From: Pygmaiobacter massiliensis | GTDB lineage: Bacteria; Bacillota; Clostridia; Oscillospirales; Ruminococcaceae | Direction of reading: 5' to 3' | Length of the DNA stretch: 64,000 bases | Assembly: GCF_900199435.1 (NCBI RefSeq) | Contig: NZ_OAML01000003.1 | Coordinates: 1,443,166-1,507,165, forward strand | In this document: positions 8,194 to 13,068 of the stretch, piece after piece | How positions within the stretch are numbered: position 1 is the first letter of the stretch | Layout of the letters: every line of letters starts with the position of its first letter | Position numbers and translations under genes: made by a program | The notes under the pieces: generated by a model | What the model was told of the DNA's origin: nothing | Seen by the model: only the letters and a program-made list of their open reading frames with translations | Database searches by the model: none

Positions 8194-9177
8194 TTATTTG
8201 CGCTCTTCCAGCAAACGCTGCCCCATGCCGTTGAGCATATAGATTGCCATCCAGCAGGCACCGTGGCTGGAAACATTGTGCAGGTCGTCGGGCGGGTAAA
8301 CTTCCATGAAGTCGAAACCTTTTGCGCCGGAAAGGCCGCACGCGTGCAGCATCTCTGCCATTTCGTAAGAGGAAAGGCCGCACAGGTCAGCCGGGCCGCC
8401 CGGGTTATGTGCAATATCCAGTGCATCGCTGCAAACGGTAACGTAGAAAGCTTTTGTGCCGTTGCTTGCAATTTCAATGGCTTTGCGGATGCAGGCTTCC
8501 CAGCCTTTGCGTTTTACTTCAAAGCTGGTGATAACGCTTGCGCCGTATTTTTCTGCTTCCTGCACTGCGCCAAAGTGATTGCGCGGGCCACGGATACCGA
8601 CACTGACAAGGTTCTTCGGGTCAAACCCAGGGATGTCATACAGACGGTGGAACGGGCTGCAGCGCGCATATTTCTCGTCGCCAAAGCTGTCCATGTTGTC
8701 CATGTGTGCGTCAAAGTGGATGATGCCGATATTGCCGTTGTACTTTTCAGCAAATGCCTCGATGAGGGGATAGCTCAGAGAATGGTCGCCGCCAAACACG
8801 ATAGGGATAGCGCCAGAATTGGTTACATCGCGCATATAGTTGCGCACGCTTTCAAAGGTAAAGTCGCGATCGCCGTTTTTTACAGCGGCATCGCCGTAAT
8901 CTACACCAGAGAAATGATCGAACGGGTCAAAATCATACTCCGGCAGATAAGCGCCGTAGCGCTCAGAAGCTTTGCGAATCGTCTTTGTTCCATTTTCGCA
9001 GCCGGTGAAGCCACCGTAGGTGCAGATGCCTTCCCACGGGGTGCCCATAATAGCGAAGTCGTGGCCCTGAATGTCCTCTTTGCTTTTTGCGACCGGCAGG
9101 CCGAGGAAAGAGGGAACACCGGAGTAAACTTCGGGATGGGGATAAGACGGAACATAGCAGACGGGTTTGTTATTCAT
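8194..9177 (-). CDS. Arginase/agmatinase-family hydrolase with Cys in the metal site
   Basis: Ureohydrolases use a two-metal centre (usually Mn) to hydrolyse guanidino or formimino groups. This 327-residue protein has the family blocks FGGDHS (His132), FDAHMD (Asp156, His158, Asp160) and GFDFMEV (Glu292). The third block, where the family has D-x-D as metal ligands, reads C249-S-D251-ALD, so the bridging Asp is Cys. The substrate is unknown; agmatine, guanidinobutyrate or another amidine are possible. The ATG at 9177 follows GGAGG; an upstream GTG-type extension lacks a good ribosome site. It is divergent from the PLP enzyme and has a shared repeat in its leader, so it is probably part of the IclR regulon. 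Confidence 0.85.
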   Translation of the reverse strand: MNNKPVCYVPSYPHPEVYSGVPSFLGLPVAKSKEDIQGHDFAIMGTPWEGICTYGGFTGCENGTKTIRKASERYGAYLPEYDFDPFDHFSGVDYGDAAVKNGDRDFTFESVRNYMRDVTNSGAIPIVFGGDHSLSYPLIEAFAEKYNGNIGIIHFDAHMDNMDSFGDEKYARCSPFHRLYDIPGFDPKNLVSVGIRGPRNHFGAVQEAEKYGASVITSFEVKRKGWEACIRKAIEIASNGTKAFYVTVCSDALDIAHNPGGPADLCGLSSYEMAEMLHACGLSGAKGFDFMEVYPPDDLHNVSSHGACWMAIYMLNGMGQRLLEERK

Positions 9178-9223
9178 GGTGAAAATCCTCCAAAGATCTA
9201 CAAATAAATTTACGCCCAAACAT

Positions 9224-9362: not shown

Positions 9363-9380
9363 TATATAAGGAGGCATATG

Positions 9381-10547
9381 ATGTATCAATTCGATGTACC
9401 CGTAGACCGCCACGGCAAAAGCCTAAAATGGGACGCTCCGCTGTATGAAGTGCCAAACCCGGCACAGCTTACCCCAATGTGGATTGCCGACATGGATTTT
9501 GCGACACCTCCCTGCGTCATCGACGCAATCGCTAACCGGCTAAAGCACCCAACTATGGGCTATTTTGAGCTGGACGACCGTTTTTACGATGCCGTAATTC
9601 GGTGGGCCAAGGTGCGCCGCGGGCTGGAGGATATCACCCGCGAGAACATTCTGTACCAAAACTCGACAGTGGGCGCTATTGTAGCCGCCATACAGCTTTT
9701 AACCGAGCCGGGTGACCCGGTGCTAGTGCATCTGCCTAACTATACCGGCTTTACTTATGGCATTGCCGATGCCGGTCGCCGCCTCGTGGGAACACCGCTC
9801 GTGCAGGATGAAAACGGTATCTTCCGGATGGACCTTGCCGATATGGAAGAGAAAATTGTAAACGAAAACATCAAGTGTTTGATTCTTTGTTCTCCACACA
9901 ACCCGACAGGCAGGGTGTGGACATTGGAAGAGTTGCAGGCAGCCACGGCACTTTGCGAAAAATATCAGGTGCGGATTATTTCCGATGAGGTCTGGTCTGA
10001 TTTTGTCTATGCCCCCGCAAAACAGATTCCGACCGCGCAGGTGTCAGAGTATGCGCGCGCACATACCATTGCCACTTACGGCGCAACCAAAACCTTTAAC
10101 CTTGCAGGTTTGCGCATTGCGTATTCCATCGTGTACGAGCCGGAGCTGGCGGCAGCGTACAAGAAAATCAGCAGCTGTAACCACTACAATGTACCCAACG
10201 TGCTTTCCGCAGAAGCGCTCATCGGTGCGTACGAACATGGCGAGCAGTACGTGGACGAGCTGGTAAGCTATATCCACGATAATCTGAACTACGCGGATGG
10301 ATACATCAAAGCCTATATTCCGTCGCTAGCCTCTTATGTACCGGAAGGAACCTATACCATGTGGCTCTCACTTGCGGGCACCGGCCGAACAGACGAAGAA
10401 AATATGCTGCGTATGGCAGCGCAGGGGTTGGTGGCAAACCCTGCAAGCGATTATAACGGAAACGGATGGTTCCGGTTGAATCTTGCTTGTCCACGCAGCC
10501 AGGTAGACGCAGCATTAGATGCATTGAAAGCTGCGATGGAGCCGTAG
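9381..10547 (+). CDS. MalY/PatB-type aminotransferase (class I/II PLP enzyme)
   Basis: This 388-residue fold-type I PLP enzyme matches the MalY/PatB branch, which includes cystathionine beta-lyases and aminotransferases. Markers are MWIADMDFATPP near the N-terminus, HPTMGYFE, CSPHNPTGRVW, SDEVWSDF and GATKTFNLAGLR with the PLP-binding Lys. The usual SKTFN start is TKTFN. Whether it cleaves C-S bonds or transaminates cannot be told from sequence. ATG 9381 has a 6-base spacer from AGGAGG; ATG 9378 is only 3 bases away and less likely. Its promoter carries the cluster repeat, so it probably acts with the hydrolase and the Nramp-like transporter. Confidence 0.9.
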   Translation: MYQFDVPVDRHGKSLKWDAPLYEVPNPAQLTPMWIADMDFATPPCVIDAIANRLKHPTMGYFELDDRFYDAVIRWAKVRRGLEDITRENILYQNSTVGAIVAAIQLLTEPGDPVLVHLPNYTGFTYGIADAGRRLVGTPLVQDENGIFRMDLADMEEKIVNENIKCLILCSPHNPTGRVWTLEELQAATALCEKYQVRIISDEVWSDFVYAPAKQIPTAQVSEYARAHTIATYGATKTFNLAGLRIAYSIVYEPELAAAYKKISSCNHYNVPNVLSAEALIGAYEHGEQYVDELVSYIHDNLNYADGYIKAYIPSLASYVPEGTYTMWLSLAGTGRTDEENMLRMAAQGLVANPASDYNGNGWFRLNLACPRSQVDAALDALKAAMEP

Positions 10548-10641: not shown

Positions 10642-11418
10642 CTATGCAAAAAGTTTGTGGCTGAGCTTGCGGGTCAAGGTCTTTAGATCAAAAATGATTT
10701 CTGGACGGTGCTCGTCAATATGAAAGGTAAGCCCGGTGACGCTGACGGTGCCAAACAGGTTGCCCTCGGCATCCAAAATGGGAGCCGAAATCGCCGCGAC
10801 ACCGAGGCCGAGCTCTTCGTTTTCTTCTGAAAAGCCGTTGCTGCGGATGAGCTCGAGATTCTCGAGCAGTGCCTCGCGAGAGGTGATTGACTTCGGCGAA
10901 AGTGCAATAAATTCATGCCGCTGAATGTATTTTTCCAGCTCTTCTGAAGACAAAAAAGAGAGCAGAAGCTTACCGGATGCGGTACAATATAAAGGATTCA
11001 GATAGCTTTCTGAGATGCTGGTAATGGTGTACATTTCTTTTTCGGGCAAAATGCGGTTAACCAGCACCAATTCGCCGAACTCCAGCATAAAAATACCGGC
11101 GCTTACTCGGTAAGCATTGGCAAGATGCGTCATATCCTCACGCGCTTCGTCCATCAAAAAAGAGCGCTTGGCGCTATCTGCAAAATGATATTTGCGCAAA
11201 AGTGCCTGGCCAAGCATATATTTGCCGCGCTGGTTTTGGCGCACAAAATTATTATTGTGTAAAGTATTTAAAATACCGTGCACGGTACTTTTATTTAAGT
11301 CCAGCATAGTGCTCAATTCGCTCAGCGAGCGCTCGGTGGTAATGTCTTCAAAGCAATTGATGATATCCACGGCGCGCTGTACGGACTGAATTACTTTGCC
11401 TGTTTTTTGCTGTGCCAT
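10642..11418 (-). CDS. IclR-family transcriptional regulator
   Basis: This 258-residue protein has the IclR layout: winged HTH at about residues 10-70 (VQRAVDIINCFEDITTERSLSELSTMLDLNKSTVHGILNTL with the recognition helix NKSTVHGIL) and an effector-binding GAF-like domain with LNPLYCTASGKLLLSFL and GVAAISAPILDAEGNLFGTVSVTG. The ligand is unknown. The ATG at 11418 follows AAAGGAGCTCG. It sits between the PLP enzyme and the Nramp-like transporter, and a palindromic repeat occurs at all three neighbouring promoters, so it is the likely local regulator. Confidence 0.93.
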   Translation of the reverse strand: MAQQKTGKVIQSVQRAVDIINCFEDITTERSLSELSTMLDLNKSTVHGILNTLHNNNFVRQNQRGKYMLGQALLRKYHFADSAKRSFLMDEAREDMTHLANAYRVSAGIFMLEFGELVLVNRILPEKEMYTITSISESYLNPLYCTASGKLLLSFLSSEELEKYIQRHEFIALSPKSITSREALLENLELIRSNGFSEENEELGLGVAAISAPILDAEGNLFGTVSVTGLTFHIDEHRPEIIFDLKTLTRKLSHKLFA

Positions 11419-11853: not shown

Positions 11854-13068
11854 ATGGATAAAAAATACACTTTAAAAGATAAAATGAAAGCCGTCGGCCC
11901 TGGCATTTTGGTTGTTGGCTCATTTATCGGCCCCGGCACTATCACCAGCGCAACCCGTGCAGGCGCAGGCTATGGCTACGCACTGCTCTGGACCATCATC
12001 TTCTCGGTTATTGCTGTTGTAGTAATGCAGGAGATGGCAGCCCGACTGGGTATTGTTACCCAAAACGGTTTGGCAGAAGAGCTTGTAAAAGAGCTGGAAG
12101 GCCGTAAGTTCTTAAAGTATTTCATGGTCACCTTGGTTGCGGCCGCCATTTCTCTGGGCGGTGTTGCCTATATGAGCGGTGACCTCACCGGCACAGCCAT
12201 TGGCATTTCTGCCATCACTGGCATCCCGTCCAAAATTGTTGCGCCGCTTTGGGGCCTCGGCGTTTTGCTGCTCGTCAGCAGGGGCAACGCAGTAAAATCA
12301 CTTGAAAAGCTGCTTACTGTATGCGTTTCTATTATGGCTGTGGTTTTCGTTGTTACCATGATTATTGTAAAACCCGACCTTGGCGAGCTGATGCGCGGCG
12401 CGATTCCGACCGTTCCCGAAGGTGCGATTATGACCTGTGTGTCGATGATTGGCACCACGGTAGTTCCTTATAACATGTTCATCCATGCCACCAGCGCCCG
12501 CAAAACCTGGAAAGACCCCGGTATGCTGCCGCTCTCTAAGTTCGATATCAAAGTTTCTATGATCATCGGCGGCATCATCACCGGCTCGGTACTTATCACC
12601 GCAGGCACCGTAATGCGCGGCATGTCTGTTAACTCTGCTGCAGATATGGCCGTACAGCTGGAGCCGGTACTCGGCAGCCTGGCACAGCCCTTCCTTAGCA
12701 TCGGCCTTGTGGCAGCAGGTATTTCCTCTGCGGTTATCACTCCGCTTGGCGTTTCTTACGTGCTGGCAGGCCTGTTTGGCTGGGGTATGGACAAAAGCGA
12801 TAAACGCTTCCACTGGACCAACATCATCATCGTTGTCATCGGTATCATCGGTGCTGCAACCGGCTTTAACCCCATCACCATCATTATGGCCGCGCAGGCA
12901 GTCAATGGTGTGTTCCTGCCTATCATCGTGTTTACCGTTCTCTTCCTTGCCAGCCGTACCAGCGTGCTGGGCAAATATAAAAACACCTGGGTACAGAATC
13001 TGCTCGGTGGCGGCGTATTCTTGATCTCGCTCATCATCGGCATCAGCAGCATTCTTTCTCTCTTTTAA
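11854..13068 (+). CDS. Nramp-fold transporter lacking the metal-binding motifs
   Basis: This 404-residue, roughly 11-helix membrane protein belongs to the Nramp/SLC11 fold. The first helix begins with the usual GPG-L but the metal-coordinating DPGN is GPGT (residues 26-29). In helix 6 the canonical VMPH(N) is VVPYN (203-207), so the Met and His are gone. Metal ions are therefore an unlikely substrate; by analogy with the wider APC superfamily an amino acid or organic cation is possible. The ATG follows AGGAGGAAGCCAA. It is preceded by IclR-type repeats, suggesting uptake of the substrate of the neighbouring hydrolase and PLP enzyme. That link is inference. Confidence 0.85.
   Translation: MDKKYTLKDKMKAVGPGILVVGSFIGPGTITSATRAGAGYGYALLWTIIFSVIAVVVMQEMAARLGIVTQNGLAEELVKELEGRKFLKYFMVTLVAAAISLGGVAYMSGDLTGTAIGISAITGIPSKIVAPLWGLGVLLLVSRGNAVKSLEKLLTVCVSIMAVVFVVTMIIVKPDLGELMRGAIPTVPEGAIMTCVSMIGTTVVPYNMFIHATSARKTWKDPGMLPLSKFDIKVSMIIGGIITGSVLITAGTVMRGMSVNSAADMAVQLEPVLGSLAQPFLSIGLVAAGISSAVITPLGVSYVLAGLFGWGMDKSDKRFHWTNIIIVVIGIIGAATGFNPITIIMAAQAVNGVFLPIIVFTVLFLASRTSVLGKYKNTWVQNLLGGGVFLISLIIGISSILSLF

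Follow-up and report, generated by a model that had tools for sequence, protein, structure and literature searches.

The arginase-family protein encoded at positions 8194-9177 (minus strand) of the window, a stretch of 64,000 nucleotides from the gut-type anaerobe Pygmaiobacter massiliensis, is best read as belonging to a new subfamily of the arginase/ureohydrolase superfamily, which comprises no characterised member and in which a cysteine (Cys249) stands in one of the six metal-ligand positions. The gene codes for 327 amino acids, its ATG start (9175-9177) has an RBS-like GGAGG upstream (9187-9191, same strand), and the product matches the PF00491 profile over the whole domain (residues 39-312, counted from the ATG; E 9e-60; 202.9 bits, cut-off 22). 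The canonical ligand set consists of H, D-x-H-x-D and D-x-D, and five of these six residues are present in the window protein: His132 (8782-8784), the ligands of D156-A-H158-M-D160 (8698-8712) and Asp251 (GAT, 8425-8427), which is the second aspartate of D-x-D. Glu292 (8302-8304), the substrate-binding glutamate of ureohydrolases, is kept as well, all of which agrees with the first-pass annotation. The first aspartate of D-x-D is replaced by Cys249 (TGC, 8431-8433), followed by Ser250 (8428-8430); the reverse complement of 8419-8439, ACC GTT TGC AGC GAT GCA CTG, translates to T-V-C-S-D-A-L. Both the codons and the alignment thus bear out the reading of the block as C249-S-D251, and in the alignment Cys249 falls on the first aspartate, with no other aspartate nearby that could take its place.

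A bridging role of this position would follow by homology with arginase I and MetCa. In arginase I the equivalent residue is D232, which bridges both metals, and ligand mutants of the rat enzyme, e.g. D232C, have reportedly been made. In MetCa of the metformin hydrolase the equivalent residue is D276 of the pair D276/D278 (PMC11271267). Among the papers searched we recognised none on a cysteine ligand in the arginase family. Selenocysteine can be ruled out because the codon is an ordinary TGC, and a lone mutation or sequencing error is ruled out by the fixation of the cysteine in 24 full-length sequences.

These sequences were found by searching about 1,160 genomes and GTDB contigs with the window protein, alignments and PF00491 as queries. 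In total the Cys-type set includes 24 full-length sequences, that of the window among them, and one fragment; the hosts are Clostridia, other Bacillota lineages and one Treponema MAG. The cysteine is present in all 24 and in the fragment, within the motif V[TS][VI]C[SA]D, while all 33 sampled sequences outside both the clade and the HutG group have aspartate in this column. When the Cys column was left out, a tree of 64 rows placed the 24 clade rows together on one side of a single branch (SH-aLRT 93). The cysteine therefore defines a clade, and its fixation at a ligand position where aspartate is generally regarded as invariant makes this thiolate a sequence marker for the subfamily. Further shared features are Arg172, a PWEG and a GPRN motif and a loop after the site which is one residue shorter; the other five ligands and Glu292 are invariant across the clade. 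The fragment (L005:7971-8471, Clostridium pascui) is the C-terminal part of a Cys-type gene which is overlapped by an IclR frame and is probably decayed.

The tree rows nearest to the clade belong to various plasmid-borne proteins, some of them GdmH-like. A Mesorhizobium protein among these rows (L127) has D-x-D, yet carries arginine at position 172, and this long-branch row suggests that Arg172 may have arisen before Cys249. Among the 30 best plasmid matches, all below 34% identity, no clade member was found, and the five of these that were read have aspartate. A plasmid-borne arginase-family protein of Sodalis praecaptivus (L129:238-1311) has serine in the His132 column and cysteine in the Glu292 column and is a possible pseudoenzyme; its gene lies between genes for a substrate-binding protein and an M20 hydrolase.

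The window protein misses the curated cut-offs of three characterised families, namely agmatinase (TIGR01230, 125.7 against 174.3; NF002564, 143.5 against 302), arginase (TIGR01229, 46.6 against 227.6) and HutG (TIGR01227, 95.5 against 229.15 bits). Because of these scores, and because its solved relatives show about 30% identity or less, we file the protein under a new subfamily; by the TIGR01230 score, the clade does not consist of agmatinases. Agmatinase (SpeB) is the usual annotation for such genes and has the same fold, but the window protein differs from it in D-x-D and in the catalytic histidine. Two other PF00491 genes are present in the same genome, both on another contig and both with a normal D-x-D (C2:722276-723052 and C2:891390-892211; L007 and L008): one is an agmatinase above the cut-off (TIGR01230, 280.8 bits), and the other stays below the curated cut-offs and has Asn-Gly instead of His-Gly. 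The best sequence matches among solved structures are the guanidinases GdmH and that of comammox (7esr, 9fek; about 30% identity or less). GdmH, however, keeps D-x-D and the catalytic histidine (HTCPW/HTTPW), where the window protein has Cys249 and Arg172. A Rfam scan around the window gene gave no match at gathering thresholds and no RNA element, and hence no guanidine riboswitch there.

An AlphaFold model built with six sequences (pLDDT 73.8, pTM 0.82) matches arginase-family structures with probability 1.00, the top fold match being the metformin hydrolase MetCa/MfmA (8ryi, 8snf, 8x3g). MetCa differs in that it keeps D276-x-D278, depends on MetCb as a partner and has nickel chaperones linked to it; in the neighbourhood of the window gene no second arginase-family gene and no nickel chaperone was recognised. 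Because the loop of residues 162-170, just before Arg172, has a pLDDT below 50, the model gives no geometry for Arg172 or the metal site.

A second substitution, which the first-pass annotation did not mention, is the likeliest to change the reaction. At Arg172-Cys173 (8659-8664) an arginine replaces the conserved catalytic histidine of ureohydrolases, which is not a metal ligand and is found in H-G-T or H-T-T. Arg172 is present in all 24 clade sequences and the adjacent Cys173 in 23 of them. Loss of this histidine is also known from MetCa, which has N199 there (PMC11271267), and HutG proteins have S-G-T instead.

The comparison with HutG bears on how the cysteine itself should be judged. Among 13 sampled HutG formimidoylglutamases, which are annotated with one reaction, seven have C-x-D and six D-x-D; most are annotated hutG and several adjoin other hut genes. 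In this set (L080, L119-L124, L130-L136) the two forms alternate at the metal-ligand position, and among the papers searched we found none which describes this alternation. The cysteine is therefore not unique to the clade. A common origin of the two cysteines is not favoured, as HutG and the clade sit on separate branches of a quick tree whose deep branches are weak and long. One Cys-bearing HutG is a plasmid-borne hutG of Pseudomonas aeruginosa beside an IclR gene and gltS. HutE/PA3175, which breaks down formiminoglutamate, is co-transcribed with an IclR-type regulator (2026 paper, PMC12977541), and from annotation and gene order the plasmid gene apparently corresponds to it. HutG/HutE proteins share with the window protein the fold and the lack of the catalytic histidine, about half of those sampled also C-x-D, and in P. 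aeruginosa also the adjoining IclR regulator. On the other hand, HutG has GGGHE and DAHFDxR where the window protein reads GGDH and DAHMDN, and no hut genes lie beside the window gene.

Because the cysteine occurs in ordinary HutG proteins, its presence alone is no proof of a new reaction, and a thiolate at this position is compatible with ordinary amidine hydrolysis as judged from this analogy. The first-pass annotation had proposed that a thiolate ligand would change the metal preference or the reaction; with HutG using either residue, and with the Cys-bearing P. aeruginosa HutE apparently working in vivo, such a necessity is not supported. What stands is that the cysteine defines a clade, a point which that annotation had proposed to check, not that it is a necessary cause of altered chemistry. 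Since HutG members show the same swap, the lost aspartate weakens the window protein's claim to the canonical six-ligand site but leaves its membership in the PF00491 superfamily unaffected. Although the idea that the cysteine alters the chemistry is weakened in this way, the altered active site and the unusual transporter partner remain of interest. HutG shows, moreover, that Cys/Asp exchange in this column is tolerated in nature, so that the role of the ligand is directly testable by swaps.

The gene context points to the catabolism of an imported amino-acid derivative. Most basal members are encoded within an operon for a branched-chain-type (LIV-type) ABC importer or immediately after one, as seen in genomes G179, G416, G650, G898, G924, G891, G884 and G933 (loci L041, L042, L044, L062-L064, L066 and L067); in L065 about 4 kb separate the gene from the LIV operon. 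The further neighbours differ: there is an M20 carbamoylase together with an ATC-hydrolase family protein in L041 and L042, an ornithine-cyclodeaminase-family gene in L062, L066 and L067, a sarcosine-oxidase-like DAO in L063 and L064, and in L065 (G861) a pair resembling threonine dehydrogenase and 2-amino-3-ketobutyrate ligase, named from the sequence by eye. As these neighbours vary by lineage, a single common substrate is not assured.

The genes next to derived members, that of the window included, encode an IclR regulator together with an NRAMP-like transporter, and in subsets also an AMDase/EutA-like protein, a glutaminase or a PatB-like PLP enzyme. In the window a divergent gene for a PatB/MalY-like PLP enzyme (9378-10547, plus strand; TIGR04350, 329 bits with a cut-off of 340) is followed by the IclR-family regulator (10642-11418, minus strand), a recurrent neighbour in the clade, and the NRAMP-like transporter (11854-13068, plus strand; PF01566, E 2.5e-82). 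PatB-like genes are also found near clade relatives in L004, L040 and L070. The metal-site motifs of NRAMP proteins are DxxN and A/CxxM (PMC8806188), those of NRAT DxxN/AxxT and those of NRMT DxxG/TxxA, while the transporter of the window has GPGT and TTVV at these positions and thus GxxT/TxxV. The clade-linked NRAMP relatives form a distinct group reading GPG[TS] and TT[VI][VG]P there. Such a GPGT-type transporter is encoded in nine of twelve derived Cys-containing genomes versus one of 38 genomes lacking the Cys-type gene (43% identity; Fisher p 8e-7, phylogeny ignored). Since this NRAMP relative stands in the place of the ABC importer and lacks the metal ligands, it may carry the substrate of the enzyme, and it is a candidate for a member with a non-metal cargo in a family whose proteins are presumed to transport metals.

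From residues and gene context together we tentatively propose, at somewhat less than even confidence, that the subfamily with Cys249 at its two-metal site hydrolyses an alpha-N-amidino or alpha-N-formimino amino acid imported by the linked transporter. The combination of cysteine and a lost histidine is common to the clade and HutG, which acts on N-formimino-glutamate, and this hints at a substrate of the alpha-N-substituted amino-acid type with its carboxylate near the scissile C-N bond. In such a mechanism Cys249, which is fixed in the place of the bridging aspartate, would help to bind the two metals, and a metal-bound hydroxide would attack the amidine carbon, leading to C-N bond hydrolysis of a small amino-acid derivative with the amidino or formimino group on the alpha-nitrogen (of the type of creatine, guanidinoacetate or formiminoglycine). 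Glu292 would hold the amidinium, and Arg172, which by alignment takes the place of the catalytic histidine of arginase, might pair with the nearby alpha-carboxylate. For import, most basal members would depend on the branched-chain-type ABC system and derived ones such as that of the window on the NRAMP-like carrier that lacks the metal motif, and the neighbouring IclR protein probably controls expression.

We consider it rather unlikely, if still worth weighing, that the cysteine is a largely neutral alternative ligand in a conventional Mn/Ni ureohydrolase which releases urea from a known guanidino compound. The seven-to-six split of the HutG column within one annotated reaction, the apparently functional P. 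aeruginosa HutE with its cysteine and the retention of all remaining ligands speak for a neutral exchange. However, the cysteine never reverts in the 24 clade sequences, it is accompanied by the loss of the catalytic histidine and by other invariant changes, and the agmatinase, arginase and HutG cut-offs are all missed. Cysteine-based deiminases such as ADI and DDAH exist, and an arginase-fold deiminase would use Cys249 (or Cys173) as nucleophile or as metal tuner; ammonia would leave, and the resulting N-carbamoyl amino acid would pass to a neighbouring amidase of the carbamoylase/nitrilase type. The hydantoinase/carbamoylase-family M20 genes of the G179 and G416 loci fit this idea, as do a CN_hydrolase at the Tissierella creatinophila locus weakly resembling N-carbamoylputrescine amidase and the loss of a histidine thought to assist the leaving of the amine. 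We regard it nevertheless as improbable, because no carbamoylase is among the neighbours read at most loci, the window included, and because the other metal ligands, needless for a metal-free cysteine mechanism, are invariant.

That the protein is a pseudoenzyme or a partner subunit like MetCb of the metformin hydrolase is very improbable indeed. Metal-free partners are known in the superfamily and one ligand is altered here, but proteins of the MetCb type lose three to five ligands (PMC11271267). The clade keeps five of the six without exception and always has a residue able to act as ligand at the sixth position, and the neighbouring genes that were read include no partner arginase.

Besides the HutG parallel there is the question of creatine, which Tissierella creatinophila degrades via sarcosine although no creatine amidinohydrolase gene was found in its genome (PMC5364220). 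This organism has two PF00491 genes, one for an agmatinase and one of the Cys-type. Creatine or guanidinoacetate as substrate is a testable guess; if it were correct, the Cys-type gene would fill the one missing from the creatine fermentation of T. creatinophila. Creatininase is found in 11 of 19 genomes with a Cys-type gene versus six of 38 without (p 0.002, phylogeny ignored), but GRDB is not enriched (8/19 versus 12/38), and the genome of the window has neither creatininase nor glycine/sarcosine reductase. Therefore creatine fermentation does not explain the gene in that genome and can be rejected as a general explanation for the clade. A bolder version, in which the clade would be the amidinohydrolase still missing from anaerobes, acting on creatine, guanidinoacetate or a comparable alpha-N-amidino acid with thiolate-bridged metals, and in which the GPGT-type NRAMP relative would import that substrate instead of a metal and so replace the basal ABC importer, appears quite unlikely to us.

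Two further genomes show the gene in other settings. In Clostridium transplantifaecale (G1103, host of L006) the Cys-type arginase gene is present twice, with a separate GPGT-type NRAMP gene close to each copy, and a third transporter gene of this type is found near an agmatinase-like gene (C7:408695-413950, C8:140736-144147 and C8:585800). In a termite-gut Defluviitaleaceae MAG (L002:7977-12160) the Cys-type gene lies just before an NRPS-like gene (condensation and AMP-binding domains), with a large PKS-like gene upstream, and could be part of a biosynthetic cluster.
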